From the NCBI GenBank assembly GCA_028713995.1, contig JAQTNF010000001.1, positions 1 to 39,980 of the forward strand: 39,980 bases of DNA. Direction: 5' to 3'. Of the stretch, positions 22,397 to 38,930 are shown piece after piece. A model generated the notes under the pieces. It saw nothing but the letters and a program-made list of their open reading frames with translations, was not told where the DNA came from and made no database searches. Source of the DNA: Deltaproteobacteria bacterium. GTDB taxonomy: Bacteria > Myxococcota_A > Polyangia > JAAYKL01. Position numbers and translations under genes: made by a program. How positions within the stretch are numbered: the stretch's first letter is position 1; each line of letters begins with the position of its first letter.

Positions 22397-22855
22397 TCAC
22401 AGCCGCTTGCCGAAGACGCGCACCGCCTCGGCCAGGATCTCGGCGTGGTCGAAGGCGAGCGCAGGAGGTCGCCGCGCCGGGGCCCAGAACGCCTCGGCCG
22501 CGTCATCCCCGCCGCGCACCGCGGGCTTGCCCCGCGCCTCGCCCATGAACACCACCGACACGTTGCGGCCGCGCGGATCGCGCCCGGGCCTGCCGTACGC
22601 CCCGAGCTGTTCGAGCTTCACCCCGAAAAGGCCGGTCTCCTCTTGCAGCTCGCGCGCCGCCGCATCCGGCAGATCCTCGTCCATGTCGACGAACCCGCCC
22701 GGGAAGGCCGCGAGCCCCTTGTACGGCGGATTGCCGCGCCGGACGAGCAGCACCTCGAGGCGGCTGCGGGTGCGCCTGAAGACCACCGCGTCGACCGTGA
22801 CCATGGGCCGCGGCCAGTCGTAGACGTACCTGCCGCGCGACGCGCCCAAGCTCAC
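22397..22855 (-). CDS. Nudix hydrolase
   Basis: A 152-residue Nudix hydrolase that should cleave nucleoside diphosphates linked to another group. The full Nudix box is at about residues 54-76, from GFVDMDE to RELQEETGL, with all metal-binding glutamates. The N-terminal YDWPRPMVTVDAVVF matches a common ADP-ribose/NAD-sugar type entry strand. The start used is a GTG that overlaps the kinase stop (GTGA); the internal ATG 51 bases later would remove the conserved YDWPRP entry. Translation is therefore probably coupled to the kinase. An ADP-ribose pyrophosphatase-like activity is likely but not certain. Confidence 0.9.
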   Translation of the reverse strand: MSLGASRGRYVYDWPRPMVTVDAVVFRRTRSRLEVLLVRRGNPPYKGLAAFPGGFVDMDEDLPDAAARELQEETGLFGVKLEQLGAYGRPGRDPRGRNVSVVFMGEARGKPAVRGGDDAAEAFWAPARRPPALAFDHAEILAEAVRVFGKRL

Positions 22856-24990
22856 GCCCCTTCCCGCCACGGGGGCTGCGGACCGTCCGAGGTCCACATG
22901 CCCGTCTCGATGGCGACGAAGAGGCCCCGCGCCAGGTTCTCCTTGCTCCGGCCGTTCTTGAGAGAGGCGGCCCAGTCGCCCAGCTTGCGCGTCTCCCGCA
23001 ACCCGCCGGCGATCTGCTCGACGTCGTGGGGGAGCATGAGCCTGCGGGAGAGATCGCGCGCCGCGGACGTGGGCGTGACGAGGGCCTGGGACATGGCCCC
23101 GAGCAGGTCGAAGGGCGCGATCCGGGAGGCCTGCTCGAGCAACCGGTCGCGCACGATGGCGAACGGATCGAGCGCCACCTCCAGCACGTCGGCCCGGCAC
23201 CCGACGCCGCGGTAGAACTCGTAGTTGCCGCGCTTCCAGCCGAGGAGATCGTCGAACCGGAACGTGATCTGCGCGCTGATATGGTTGAACAGGTCGACGG
23301 CCGAGAGCATGCCGAGCGCGATAAGGGTGTCGCCCAGGTGGCCGTTGTACTTGGGCAAGAGAGACAGGGCCATCTCCAGATCCATGCGGTCGATGGCCGA
23401 GCGCGCCACGAGGAACTCGCCGAGCAGCTCCGCGGGGTTGTTCGAGGCCACGTAGACCGGATGCCCGTCACGGTAGTAGACCTCCTTGCGCCGGCCGCCG
23501 CTCTCGCACCCGAGCAGCCCGGTCTCGTTGCGAACGGCGAGCGACAGCACGACCTCGGAGGGCGACTCCATCTCGAGGAGGCCGCGGCGATCCGGCGTCT
23601 CGATTTCGGTGAGGTCGCGCGTGGGAGTGTAGGTCGGCAGGTGGCGGGCCAGCTCGGGTCGCTCCGCGGCCGGGACGAACACCTCGCCGTCCACCGACAC
23701 GGGCGTCTCCGGCCCGACCTTGTCCGAATAGATGAGCTCCACCAGATGCGCGAACGACGTGGGCCCGACGGTCGTCCCGTCCGCGAGCCGCGCCGAATAG
23801 TGATCTTCGGCGGAGAACGGCGTGGTCTCGAGCGTGACGGGCGTCCCGTCGCCGAGAAACGATCCGCCCAACCTCGGGAAGCGGCCGGTGGGCTCGGGCG
23901 GATCGCTGCCGGGCCGGGCCGTCGGGAAGCTCCCGCGCATCGCGGTCAGGTCGGTCTCGCGTCCGGCGCGGGATTGGAACGGATCGGCCGTGAGCGGGGT
24001 CTGCTCCTGGCCCGCGTCGGGTTTGACGCTCTTCGAGCGCAGCTCGACGGCCCTCCTCACCTGATCGGCCAGCTCGGACTGCGGGGGCCTCCCCGCGCGC
24101 GCCGCCAGGTAGGCGAGGAGCTCGTCCCTGAGCTCGCCGGCGGTCTGCGGGCGTCCGTCCGGCTCGCGCGACACGGCGCGGCGGATGATGGCGAGCAGCG
24201 CCTGCTCCACCTTGTCGGCGTTCTGCTCGAGGGTGTCGAGGCGCGCGTCGCGGATGTCGAGCAGCACGCCGAGCTGGCTGTGCCCGGAGAAGAGCTTCTT
24301 GCCGATCAGAATCTCCGCCAGCACCACCCCCGCGGCGAAGATGTCGGAGCGCTGGTCGATCGGCCGTCCTTCCACCTGCTCGGGGGCCATGTATCCGAAC
24401 TTGCCCTTGGGGATCATGGTCGTCTGCCTGTAGCGCCGCGACCGGATGCGCGCGATGCCGAAGTCGCCGAGCTTCACGTTTCCGTCGAGCGAAAGATAGA
24501 TGTTGGAGGGCGAGATGTCCCTGTGGACCACGTGGAGCGGGTGGCCGTTCACGTCCGTCATGCCGTGCACGTACTCGAGGGCCAGGAGCACGTCGCACAT
24601 GATGGAGACCGCCAGGGCCGTATGGTTTCGGCCCCACGGGAACAGGCGCCGCGAGAAGCGCCAGCAGTCGAGGCCGTCGACGTACTCCATGACCATGTAG
24701 AGGTGGCCGCGGTGCTCGCCGAAGTCGACGACCCGCACCACGTTGGGGTGCCGCATCTGGGCCGCGAGCTGGGCCTCGTTCACGAACATCCCGAGGAACT
24801 GGGGATCGTGCGCGAGCTCGGGCAGGATGCGCTTGACGATGACCGGAGGCGTGCCGAGCGGGGCGCCACGCTCCGTGGCCAGGAAGATCTCGGCCATGCC
24901 GCCGTGGGCGATCTTCTGCACGAGGTCGTAACGGCCGAACTCGACGCGATCGGCCAGGGAACCCTCGGATGTTGTCTGCCACTCGTTCAT
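22852..24990 (-). CDS. Ser/Thr protein kinase with GYF-like and DUF4388 domains
   Basis: A 712-residue Hanks-type kinase. The ATP loop is IAHGGMAEIFLA (about 27-38), the lysine is K53 in VIVKRIL, the catalytic loop HRDISPSN has Asp158, DFG is 176-178 and APE 202-204, so the kinase should be active. A linker (about 300-400) follows, then a GYF-like segment (about 405-460, YSARLADGTTVGPTS). A DUF4388/PATAN domain follows at about 480-600 and a helical C-terminus. There is no membrane helix. An ATG at 25056 is also in frame, but the extra codons use unusual low-GC third positions and a possible -10 box covers it, so 24990 is preferred. It leads a five-gene operon. Confidence 0.88.
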   Translation of the reverse strand: MNEWQTTSEGSLADRVEFGRYDLVQKIAHGGMAEIFLATERGAPLGTPPVIVKRILPELAHDPQFLGMFVNEAQLAAQMRHPNVVRVVDFGEHRGHLYMVMEYVDGLDCWRFSRRLFPWGRNHTALAVSIMCDVLLALEYVHGMTDVNGHPLHVVHRDISPSNIYLSLDGNVKLGDFGIARIRSRRYRQTTMIPKGKFGYMAPEQVEGRPIDQRSDIFAAGVVLAEILIGKKLFSGHSQLGVLLDIRDARLDTLEQNADKVEQALLAIIRRAVSREPDGRPQTAGELRDELLAYLAARAGRPPQSELADQVRRAVELRSKSVKPDAGQEQTPLTADPFQSRAGRETDLTAMRGSFPTARPGSDPPEPTGRFPRLGGSFLGDGTPVTLETTPFSAEDHYSARLADGTTVGPTSFAHLVELIYSDKVGPETPVSVDGEVFVPAAERPELARHLPTYTPTRDLTEIETPDRRGLLEMESPSEVVLSLAVRNETGLLGCESGGRRKEVYYRDGHPVYVASNNPAELLGEFLVARSAIDRMDLEMALSLLPKYNGHLGDTLIALGMLSAVDLFNHISAQITFRFDDLLGWKRGNYEFYRGVGCRADVLEVALDPFAIVRDRLLEQASRIAPFDLLGAMSQALVTPTSAARDLSRRLMLPHDVEQIAGGLRETRKLGDWAASLKNGRSKENLARGLFVAIETGMWTSDGPQPPWREGA

Positions 24991-25051
24991 GTCGGTTGCG
25001 TCGCAGGGCCGCCCGTGTCCCTTCCGCAGGGGGGCAGTTTTCGTGTAGTCT

Positions 25052-25057
25052 ATCATA
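25052..25057 (-). promoter_or_regulatory. possible -10 box for the kinase operon
   Basis: On the minus strand TATGAT lies about 60 bases upstream of the preferred kinase start at 24990. No good -35 box is present at 17 bases. If used, it would place transcription start downstream of the alternative ATG at 25056. Confidence 0.25.
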
Positions 25058-25115: not shown

Positions 25116-26894
25116 TTGGACGACGCGGGATTCGAGCTCATGTTGCCGGGCGCCGTGGCGCACATTTGCCGCACGCTCGCGCAGGCCGGGGAGTCGGCCT
25201 TCGTGGTGGGTGGGTCGATCAGGGATCTCGTGTCCGGGCGCGTCCCTGTGGACTGGGATCTCGCCACGAGCGCCACGCCCGAGCGCGTCATAGGGCTCTT
25301 CCGGCGCGTCGTGCCGACCGGCGTGGCCCACGGCACCGTGACGGTCCTCGCGGGCGACGAGAGCTACGAGGTCACGACCCTGCGCGGCGAGGGCGGCTAC
25401 GCGGACGGCCGCCATCCGGACAGCGTGACGTTCATTACGGACATCGAGGCCGATCTGGCGCGCCGGGACTTCACGGTGAACGCCATGGCCTGGGATCCGG
25501 CCGCGAGGTCGCTCGTGGATCCGTTCGGCGGCCGCGCCGATCTCGCGTCGCGCGTGCTGCGGGCGGTGGGCGATCCGGCCATCCGCTTCGCCGAGGATGG
25601 ACTGCGAGTGCTGCGCGCGGCCAGGTTCGCGGCCACGCTCGAGATGGTGGTGGAGGAGGGTACGCGGGGCGCCATGCCGGCCGCGGCGCCGGCCCTTGCC
25701 CGGGTGTCGGCCGAGCGCAAGCGCGACGAGCTCGCAAAGCTCCTCTCGGCGAACCGCCCGTCAATCGGGCTCGCGCTCATCCAGGACAACGGCCTGCTGC
25801 CGTTCGTGTGCCCTGGGCTCGCGGGGTCGCACACGGCCGCGTGGTCGCGGGTGCTCGCGCGGGTGGATGCCGCCCCGGCCGGGCTCCCGATGAGGCTCGC
25901 TGCCCTGCTCACAGATCTGCCCGGCGAAGCGGCGCGCGAATGGCTCACGTCCATGAAGCTCGACCGCAGGACCACGGATCGCGTCGCGCGCCTCGTGGAC
26001 GGCCTCGTGGTTCCGTGCAAGGCCGACGCGACCGACGCCGAGGTCAGGCGCGACCTCAAACGGATCGGGCTCGATTGCGTGCACGATCTCTTCAGCCTGC
26101 GGCGCGCCGATCTCATCGCCTGCGCGGCTGTCGCCGAGGCGTTCGCGGATCTCGATCGCCTGGAAGGGCGCGTCATCGACATGGAGCGCCATGGCCTGGC
26201 CCTCGGCACCGGAGATCTGGCCGTGGACGGGAACGATCTCATGCGCGAGCTCGGCATCCCTGCCGGCCGCGACGTGGGTCGCCTCCTCGCCGCGCTCCTC
26301 GACCACGTGCTCGACCACCCCGAGGACAACACGCGCGAGAAGCTCATCGAGCTGGCGCGGCGCACGGTTTCATTGACAGGCAAAAGCCGGGATGAATGTG
26401 TCTTCCCGGCGTTGAAAGGAGTCTCCATGGCAGAGAGAACACTGTCGGATTTCATCGAGCTCGCCATCAAGCGCGAGATCGAGGCGCACGATTTCTATCG
26501 CGGGCTCGTCGCGAAGGTGGAGGACGCGGTCGCGCGCGACGCCCTCGAGCACCTGGCCGCCGAGGAGAAGAAGCACCGGGTTTTCCTGGAGGAATACCGC
26601 GCAGGCAAGCTGGGGCCCGATGTCCTGCGGCTCAGTCACGTGGTCGATTACAGAATCGCCGAGCACCTCGAGAAGCCGGATCCGCAGAAGAACATGGAGA
26701 CCAAGGACGTATACTTGGTGGCCGCCCACAGGGAGCAGAGCTCGTGCGCGTTCTACGAGGGCCTCGCCGCGCTCCACCCCGACGGAGCGGTCAAGGACAT
26801 GCTCCTGCGCATGGCGAACGAGGAACGGCGGCACAAGGAAAAGGTGGAGTACCTCTACAGCAACACCGCGTTCCCCCAGACCGCGGGCGGCTGA
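25116..26894 (+). CDS. cca: CCA-adding-type nucleotidyltransferase fused in frame to rubrerythrin-like domain
   Basis: A continuous 592-codon frame. Residues 1 to about 425 are a class II tRNA nucleotidyltransferase/poly(A) polymerase-like enzyme: GGSIRD at 32-37, the catalytic Asp46-x-Asp48, RRDFTVNAMAWD near 130 and EDGLRVLRAARFAA near 170-185. It would add or repair the tRNA CCA end. There is no stop before a ferritin-like domain beginning at residue 438, although an AGGAG ribosome site and ATG sit at that junction. A single-base insertion in the run of A upstream would end the first protein at a TGA about 30 bases before the ATG. The start used is a TTG with GGAGG at eight bases; ATG 25140 is the alternative. 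Confidence 0.85.
   Translation: MDDAGFELMLPGAVAHICRTLAQAGESAFVVGGSIRDLVSGRVPVDWDLATSATPERVIGLFRRVVPTGVAHGTVTVLAGDESYEVTTLRGEGGYADGRHPDSVTFITDIEADLARRDFTVNAMAWDPAARSLVDPFGGRADLASRVLRAVGDPAIRFAEDGLRVLRAARFAATLEMVVEEGTRGAMPAAAPALARVSAERKRDELAKLLSANRPSIGLALIQDNGLLPFVCPGLAGSHTAAWSRVLARVDAAPAGLPMRLAALLTDLPGEAAREWLTSMKLDRRTTDRVARLVDGLVVPCKADATDAEVRRDLKRIGLDCVHDLFSLRRADLIACAAVAEAFADLDRLEGRVIDMERHGLALGTGDLAVDGNDLMRELGIPAGRDVGRLLAALLDHVLDHPEDNTREKLIELARRTVSLTGKSRDECVFPALKGVSMAERTLSDFIELAIKREIEAHDFYRGLVAKVEDAVARDALEHLAAEEKKHRVFLEEYRAGKLGPDVLRLSHVVDYRIAEHLEKPDPQKNMETKDVYLVAAHREQSSCAFYEGLAALHPDGAVKDMLLRMANEERRHKEKVEYLYSNTAFPQTAGG
26427..26894 (+). CDS. rubrerythrin-like ferritin-domain protein (internal start in the cca frame)
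   Basis: A 155-residue four-helix ferritin-like protein if translated from its own ATG, which has an AGGAG site at six bases. The paired iron ligands are visible: KREIEAHDFY and EEKKH in the first half, HREQSSCAFYEG and EERRH in the second. Such domains hold a di-iron centre and often act in peroxide reduction or iron handling. The rubredoxin CxxC domain of full rubrerythrins is absent. It is in frame with the upstream nucleotidyltransferase and could be made alone, as a fusion, or both. The independent start looks more natural than the fusion. Confidence 0.65.
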   Translation: MAERTLSDFIELAIKREIEAHDFYRGLVAKVEDAVARDALEHLAAEEKKHRVFLEEYRAGKLGPDVLRLSHVVDYRIAEHLEKPDPQKNMETKDVYLVAAHREQSSCAFYEGLAALHPDGAVKDMLLRMANEERRHKEKVEYLYSNTAFPQTAGG

Positions 26895-27097: not shown

Positions 27098-27694
27098 TCA
27101 GCAGCACGCCGCATCGACCATCGGCTCCCATCCCGCATCCTCGGATCCACAAGGGGTGTCCTCCACCTGCTGGACGGCGTCGCAGATGCGCTCGAGCTTC
27201 GTGCACAGCGATCTCTCCGAATAGAAACAGTACTCGCATTCCTTCCCGATCCAATCGAAGTAGTGCGTCCAGGCATAGACCACCGGGCCCGTGCTATCTT
27301 CGATATCCGAGAAGCACACATAGGGGGCCCCACCGTCGAGCGCCGGCACCTGCTCGCCATCGCATTCCACCCAATCTTCGTATACGCACCATCCGGCCCA
27401 GAAGGTCATCGTCGCCTCGATCCCGACGATGCACTCGTCGGCGTCCCCGGCGTCCGGATCCGTCTGGCCCGCGTCGTCTCCGGCATCGGGACCTGCATCG
27501 ACGTCGGTGTCGCCGTCCGTATCGGTATCGGTATCGGTATCCGTGTCGGTATCAGTGTCGCTATCCGTGTCCGCGTCGCTGTCCGCATCGCCGGATGCAT
27601 CCGGACCGGAGTCGACATCCGGCTTCGCGCTGTCCGCGCAACCGGCCAGGCAAACAATGAGAAGCGCCAGCATCATGAAGGCTGCTGTTCTCAT
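27098..27694 (-). CDS. small Cys-rich lipoprotein with Asp-rich tether
   Basis: A 198-residue predicted lipoprotein with a near-ideal lipobox LAGC (Cys19). Residues about 30-85 are a DTDTDTDTD-type tract. The remaining 110 residues contain about a dozen cysteines (for example ECEYCFYSERSLC) and many aromatic residues, suggesting a small disulfide-bonded domain; none was recognised. The ATG follows GCGAGGGAGGGAGCC, a ribosome site also seen on other lipoprotein genes here. A possible sigma-54 promoter lies 50 bases upstream. Direct copies of the dispersed repeat lie on both sides of the gene, so it may be a recently moved or recombined unit. Confidence 0.8.
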   Translation of the reverse strand: MRTAAFMMLALLIVCLAGCADSAKPDVDSGPDASGDADSDADTDSDTDTDTDTDTDTDTDGDTDVDAGPDAGDDAGQTDPDAGDADECIVGIEATMTFWAGWCVYEDWVECDGEQVPALDGGAPYVCFSDIEDSTGPVVYAWTHYFDWIGKECEYCFYSERSLCTKLERICDAVQQVEDTPCGSEDAGWEPMVDAACC

Positions 27695-27743
27695 GGCTCC
27701 CTCCCTCGCCCACGAATGGCGGACGAATCCATTGTATCCGTTG

Positions 27744-27759
27744 TGCATGGTTCGTGCCA
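27744..27759 (-). promoter_or_regulatory. sigma-54 promoter candidate for the Cys-rich lipoprotein
   Basis: Minus-strand TGGCACGAACCATGCA matches the -24/-12 consensus TGGCACG-N4-TTGCA at all but one defined position, with the GG and GC elements exactly ten bases apart. The lipoprotein start codon is about 50 bases downstream. A sigma-54 gene and enhancer-binding activator are not in the window. Confidence 0.4.
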
Positions 27760-27780
27760 CCAGGGATGCCCGCGCCGTGC

Positions 27781-37127: not shown

Positions 37128-38930
37128 ATGACTCGCAAATTTCTTGTCATCCCGGCGGCGCTCCTCTTTGCGGCGGCGTTGTCGTGCGAGAGCGGGGCGG
37201 ACACGACGACCGGGGACGACGACAACGGCGCGGACGCGGACGGCGACACGGACTCGGACGCGGACTCGGACGCGGACTCCGATACGGACACGGGCGCCCT
37301 GGGCACGTGCGAGCCGGGCGAGGTCTGGTGCCTCGGGAACTTCGTATCCGTGTGCAACGCACAGGGCGCGTTATGGGACAAGACCGAGGATTGCGCCACG
37401 CAGGGCCTCATCTGCGCGGCGGGCAAGTGTTCGGACTTCACGCAACAGTGCGCGGACGCCATCAACGAGCGCTCCTACATCGGCTGCGACTACTGGGCGA
37501 CCACGCTCAGCAACATCGAGCTCAACTGGACCCCCGCGACGAACGCGTACGCCCAGAAGCCGTTCTACTACGCCATCGCGGTGGCCAACGACGGCGCGGA
37601 CAACGCAGAGGTCACGGTCACGGACGGCGCGACCATCAACAACAACTACACCGTGCCCGGCGGCCAGATGATCATCATCGAGGACCTGCCCTGGAAGATG
37701 AACATCAAGAACCCGGGCGACATCCAGAAGAACACCTGGGCCACGCGCCAGGTGGCCAACGCCGCCTACCACCTCACCTCCACACGGCCCGTCACCGCCT
37801 ACCAGTTCAACCCGCTCCATTACTCCGCGGGCACAAACGTCTATTCGTATTCCAATGACGCCTCGCTCCTGCTCCCGTCGCATGTCTACCTGGACGAATA
37901 CGTGGCCATGGCGCGGCCGACCATGAAGGTGAAAACCGCCTCAGCCGGCATGATACGGCCCGGATTCGTGGCCATCGTCGGCACGGGCGACGGGCCGTCC
38001 ACCGTGGAGATCACGTCGTCGGCGTTCACGTTCAAGTCCGACGCCAAGTCCAGCGCCTCCTACCCCGCGCTGCAACCGGGCGGGACCATGACCGCGACCT
38101 TGAACCCTTATGACGTGCTGCAGATCCTCTCGAGCGCCGAGCAGGCCTGCACGGGCGGCAAGGTCTGCCAGGCCGGCTACACGTGCTGCAACACGCCTCC
38201 CCAGTACGACCTCACGGGCACGATCATCAAGGTCACCTCCGGGCCGAGCCCGGCCGTGTTCGCCGGCACCACCATGAGCTTCGTGCCGTTCAACAAGTGG
38301 GCCGCGGATCACCTCGAGGAGCAGATGTTCCCGCTCAAGACGTGGGGCACCCACTACATCTGCGCCCGCAACATCACCCAGAAGCCGGCCGAACCGACGG
38401 TCTGGCGCGTGCTGTCGGGCTCGAACGGCAATCCGATCACGTTCACGCCCGCATCCGCGCACGCGGGCGTGACGCTGAACAAGGGCGAGTACGTCGAGTT
38501 CGAGAGCCTCGCGGATTTCGAGATCAAAGGAGAGGGCCGCATTTCGGTCGGGCAGTTCATGGTCGGACAGAATTACACCTCGGACGTGAACCCGCCGAAG
38601 AACGGTGATCCGTCCATGTCGCTCGGCGTGCCCGTGGAACAGTACCGCACGAGCTACACGTTCCTCGCGCCCACGACATACGTTTTCAATTACCTGACAG
38701 TGGTCCACAAGACCGGGACATTCCCGCAGCTGGACGGCGCACCGGTAGCCGGTGACACGGTCGGTGTCACCGCCGAGTACTCGCGGACCAACCTCACCAT
38801 CTCCGCCGGTATACACAAGATCAAGTCGACCGAGGCGTTCGGAATCCAGGTGTACGGCGTCGGAACCTACACGTCGTACATGTACCCGGGAGGCCTCGAC
38901 CTCAAGCGGGTCGACACGCCGGTCGATTGA
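37128..38930 (+). CDS. IgGFc-binding-domain-like lipoprotein with Asp-rich tether
   Basis: A 600-residue predicted lipoprotein. The signal sequence ends ALSC (Cys20), followed by an Asp-rich tract to about residue 60 and a small Cys-rich module (CEPGEVWCLGNFVSVC to GKCSDF). From about residue 115 comes an IgGFc-binding-type domain: YIGCDYWATTL, PVTAYQFNPLHY and a long beta-rich region with TSYTFLAPTTY near the end. Such domains occur on surface proteins of Myxococcota and relatives, with unknown partners. A strong AAGGAGG site precedes the ATG. It is the largest of the Asp-rich set. Confidence 0.85.
   Translation: MTRKFLVIPAALLFAAALSCESGADTTTGDDDNGADADGDTDSDADSDADSDTDTGALGTCEPGEVWCLGNFVSVCNAQGALWDKTEDCATQGLICAAGKCSDFTQQCADAINERSYIGCDYWATTLSNIELNWTPATNAYAQKPFYYAIAVANDGADNAEVTVTDGATINNNYTVPGGQMIIIEDLPWKMNIKNPGDIQKNTWATRQVANAAYHLTSTRPVTAYQFNPLHYSAGTNVYSYSNDASLLLPSHVYLDEYVAMARPTMKVKTASAGMIRPGFVAIVGTGDGPSTVEITSSAFTFKSDAKSSASYPALQPGGTMTATLNPYDVLQILSSAEQACTGGKVCQAGYTCCNTPPQYDLTGTIIKVTSGPSPAVFAGTTMSFVPFNKWAADHLEEQMFPLKTWGTHYICARNITQKPAEPTVWRVLSGSNGNPITFTPASAHAGVTLNKGEYVEFESLADFEIKGEGRISVGQFMVGQNYTSDVNPPKNGDPSMSLGVPVEQYRTSYTFLAPTTYVFNYLTVVHKTGTFPQLDGAPVAGDTVGVTAEYSRTNLTISAGIHKIKSTEAFGIQVYGVGTYTSYMYPGGLDLKRVDTPVD

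Follow-up and report, generated by a model that had tools for sequence, protein, structure and literature searches.

Among described systems, the closest to the locus studied here are the class II CCA-adding enzyme of Geobacillus stearothermophilus (PDB 1miv) and, separately, the stand-alone ferritin-like di-iron carboxylate proteins of the COG1633 type, represented by Thermotoga maritima TM1526 (1vjx) and by 2fzf. CCA-adding tRNA nucleotidyltransferases are recognised by a nucleotidyltransferase head with GG..R, D.D and RRDFTVNA motifs, and the ferritin-like proteins by two di-iron motifs of the form E..ExxH within a bundle of four helices. We know of no earlier link between tRNA 3'-end repair and an iron/peroxide enzyme, and, among the papers searched, none beyond one incidental genome paper connects a CCA enzyme with a ferritin-like protein. 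In the 39,980-nucleotide stretch of a Deltaproteobacteria bacterium that was analysed here (the window), both kinds of protein are encoded in one frame, which runs stop-free from TTG 25116 to TGA 26892-26894 (592 aa) and is mechanically open from position 24969 onward; residues 1 to approximately 424 constitute the CCA-adding enzyme and residues 438-592 a rubrerythrin/COG1633-type ferritin-like protein. This arrangement is best explained (probability approximately 0.88) by two neighbouring ordinary genes, the first of which has lost its stop through natural mutation or an assembly error. The following features were assigned:

25116..26387, plus strand: cca, tRNA CCA-adding nucleotidyltransferase, residues 1-424 (Pfam, NCBIfam, 1miv, motifs, AlphaFold)
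26364..26426, plus strand: stop-free junction of intergenic-like composition, 63 bases, overlapping the expected end of cca (GC3, pLDDT, stops of relatives)
26415..26421, plus strand: Shine-Dalgarno sequence AAAGGAG of the ferritin-like gene, 5 nt before its ATG
26427..26894, plus strand: ferritin-like di-iron carboxylate protein of stand-alone type, 155 aa (PF02915, TM1526/2fzf relatives, ligands)

Within the first part of the frame, the Pfam domains PolyA_pol, PolyA_pol_RNAbd and tRNA_NucTran2_2 were identified at residues 28-413, so that RNA-binding and C-terminal domains are present, and the frame runs past the usual chain end near residue 420-430. All three head motifs were found: G32, G33, R36 and D48, as well as R116, R117, D118, F119, N122 and A123, are invariant in 24 sequences, and D46 is nearly so. 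The best NCBIfam match was PRK13299 (CCA tRNA nucleotidyltransferase; residues 16-415, 272.4 bits, which is below its curated cut-off of 290), and the best solved relative was 1miv (residues 17-411, E 3.7e-56); on the strength of these two matches the product of cca would be expected to add CCA rather than A or poly(A). The AlphaFold model is confident for the CCA enzyme, with pLDDT exceeding 90 at most positions as far as residue 420; its last helix (407-422) completes the predicted fold at residue 422. A second homolog of the enzyme, 32% identical, is located on contig C129. Divergent from cca lies a gene for a Ser/Thr protein kinase that carries DUF4388 at its C-terminus (22852-25056, minus strand), and then a NUDIX hydrolase (22397-23200).

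The second part of the frame carries a Rubrerythrin domain (PF02915) at residues 445-493. Six di-iron ligands, namely E17, E47, H50, E103, E133 and H136 in the numbering of the 155-aa protein, are invariant across 39 sequences and provide the two E..ExxH motifs; 2fzf and TM1526 were the nearest solved relatives, and identity to the nearest relatives found is approximately 25-33%. The C-terminal part of the 592-aa AlphaFold model is helical and of moderate confidence, and low confidence is to be expected in this part since the alignment used contained no ferritin rows. A rubrerythrin in the strict sense was considered and rejected, as the chain ends at 155 aa, has a single cysteine and lacks an Fe-Cys4 site. 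Further along the window, a putative lipoprotein without a Pfam match (27098-27760, minus strand) combines a long Asp/Thr/Ser repeat (DADTDSDTDTDTD...) with a Cys-containing C-terminal part, and an IgGFc_binding domain protein (PF17517, E 1.4e-57) is encoded at 37128-38930 on the plus strand.

The first-pass annotation, made from the sequence alone, had stated that no stop separates the nucleotidyltransferase from the ferritin-like domain and that the junction nevertheless has an AGGAG and an ATG of its own. Translation of 25116-26894 bears out the former, and the latter corresponds to the order AAAGGAG, TCTCC and in-frame ATG 26427-26429. Of the 981 ATGs that the window contains when both strands are counted, just five have AAGGAG ahead of them at such a spacing, and the Shine-Dalgarno sequence ahead of Met 26427 thus exceeds chance; furthermore, GGAGG is located upstream of the cca start at TTG 25116, and Shine-Dalgarno sites of such a kind are therefore used here. 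A promoter before the ferritin-like gene was also sought, and was rejected because a TTGACA at 26373 has no fitting -10 element. The composition of the junction differs from that of its flanks: across the 20 codons of 26367-26426, GC3 is 0.55 (against 0.89 in cca and 0.88 in the ferritin-like gene) and total GC is 0.52 (against 0.72 and 0.64, respectively). The low GC3 looks like that of an intergenic stretch rather than of a selected linker, and in the AlphaFold model the linker residues 423-441 have pLDDT below 50.

The absence of a stop from the junction is by itself unremarkable, with 33% of junction shuffles being stop-free in frame across 21 codons; since about one third of random stretches of this length and composition are open, loss of one stop suffices. 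Insertion of one base upstream would bring TGA 26393-26395 into frame, as the first-pass annotation had calculated for a stop at about 26395, and removal of one base would do the same for TGA 26374 or 26413. Whereas that annotation had considered an indel in the run of A near 26380, a substitution would serve equally well, because eight codons out of 21 in the junction need just one base exchanged to become a stop. Any such small change is enough to explain why the frame is open, whether it arose naturally or as a technical artefact.

A comparison of orthologous loci, which the first-pass annotation had proposed, places the missing stop where nearly all relatives have theirs. There are 107 other CCA-enzyme loci with a readable C-terminus; in 106 of them, among which are all close same-family relatives, the CCA enzyme terminates opposite query residues 416-453 (median 424, taken across all rows), inside the junction interval or a little past it. 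The same-family enzymes are unfused, and are mostly 42-54% identical to the query (36% in one case). Two CCA matches that seemed to extend further, as far as query residue 471 in L022 and 539 in L046, were dismissed, as the CCA similarity ends at 415-416 and the frames stop at 428 and 434, respectively. The lone exception among the 107 is a locus of an Oscillospiraceae MAG (L097, 4869-6989), in which the cca frame continues, uninterrupted by a stop, into a radical-SAM-like protein; this looks like an accident of the same kind as in the window, i.e. a lost stop (or another fusion).

The relatives of the ferritin-like part are mostly stand-alone frames of approximately 150-170 aa, and their ATG aligns about -3 to +2 residues from Met 26427, usually with a Shine-Dalgarno sequence. 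Matches were obtained in 47 of 318 genomes of the class and in 40 of 379 genomes of the phylum (the two sets overlap). The search for a cca/ferritin pair spanned same-family, class and phylum genomes, with a 613-aa frame (G218:C495) and a 976-aa frame (G346:C173) left out; in the fetched loci, which extend approximately 1.5 kb to either side of each ferritin match, the two genes occur together in the window alone. Longer open frames at three ferritin matches (L116, L128 and L129) were rejected as fusions, as tblastn identified no cca in them.

Junction composition, the ends and starts of homologs and the lack, in the fetched loci, of any relative so arranged all argue for the loss of a stop before an independent start, which was one of the two readings offered in the first-pass annotation. 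Two neighbouring genes would thus lie head to tail, cca starting at TTG 25116 and the ferritin-like gene at ATG 26427 behind its own Shine-Dalgarno sequence, and they probably form one transcription unit. The stop of cca, due at approximately 26365-26425, would have disappeared by a natural substitution, a single-base indel or an assembly/consensus error, and, as the two reading frames would by chance be in register, the open frame continues. The first part would be expected to keep its CCA-adding activity on tRNA, and the second to be translated independently, from ATG 26427, as a di-iron protein that acts as a peroxidase or binds iron. Should the cell really lack the stop, a read-through protein of 592 aa would arise as a by-product alongside the 155-aa ferritin-like protein. 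Weighing against two separate genes are the stop-free state of the given sequence and the distance of the nearest CCA relatives, which are only about 50% identical, the genus being represented by a single genome, the window's own, so that a fusion peculiar to the genus keeps a small probability. That genome yielded no 16S rRNA, and among named relatives a Myxococcota MAG (L032) is the closest.

As to how the stop was lost, a natural loss within the lineage, in which the sequence is correct and a read-through fusion accompanies an internally started ferritin-like protein, has close to an even chance of being the right account. The single-substitution distances and the share of stop-free shuffles given above fit it, and with an internal start the ferritin-like protein would not be lost, although such an account requires the given sequence to be exact. 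An assembly or consensus error, whereby the real genome has a stop that was lost through a one-base indel or miscall (e.g. in the AAAA run at 26382-26385), is a plausible if tentative account: one extra base would end the CCA enzyme at about residue 427, as in relatives, and the source assembly is a draft broken into 218 contigs, but four A make a rather short homopolymer for indel errors of a systematic kind, and a natural loss of the stop explains the junction just as well. It is very improbable that a single gene gives two products, a lineage-specific translated fusion and a free ferritin-like protein from the internal start. The novel fusion envisaged in the first-pass annotation, taken here as one functional CCA-adding enzyme of 592 aa that ends in a di-iron domain and might, for example, couple the repair of tRNA ends to the status of peroxide or iron, is likewise highly doubtful, since, for all that the frame is uninterrupted and the active-site residues of both halves are intact, nothing beyond the open frame supports it: the GC3 of the linker is non-coding-like, the Shine-Dalgarno sequence and start are independent and match those of stand-alone homologs, the fetched loci hold no second case, and neither mark of an evolved gene fusion (recurrence of the architecture across lineages, or a linker under coding constraint) was found.

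The preferred reading, that of two genes and a lost stop, carries a caution for GC-rich draft genomes, in which stop codons are scarce and one lost stop makes two neighbouring genes resemble a new fusion enzyme. Were the read-through protein in fact made and used, it would provide the first connection known to us between 3'-end repair of tRNA and an iron/peroxide enzyme, yet none of the results calls for this. Compared with the Geobacillus stearothermophilus enzyme, the window protein has the same head and RNA-binding domains and the same three motifs, but its frame extends 168 residues beyond the usual end. The ferritin-like part resembles TM1526 and 2fzf in its length of approximately 155 aa, its six ligands and the position of its N-terminal Met, and differs from stand-alone COG1633-type proteins in that no stop separates its gene from the preceding one. 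With rubrerythrin it shares the PF02915 domain and the E..ExxH..E..ExxH ligands; in contrast to rubrerythrin, it has no C-terminal rubredoxin domain and ends straight after the fourth helix.
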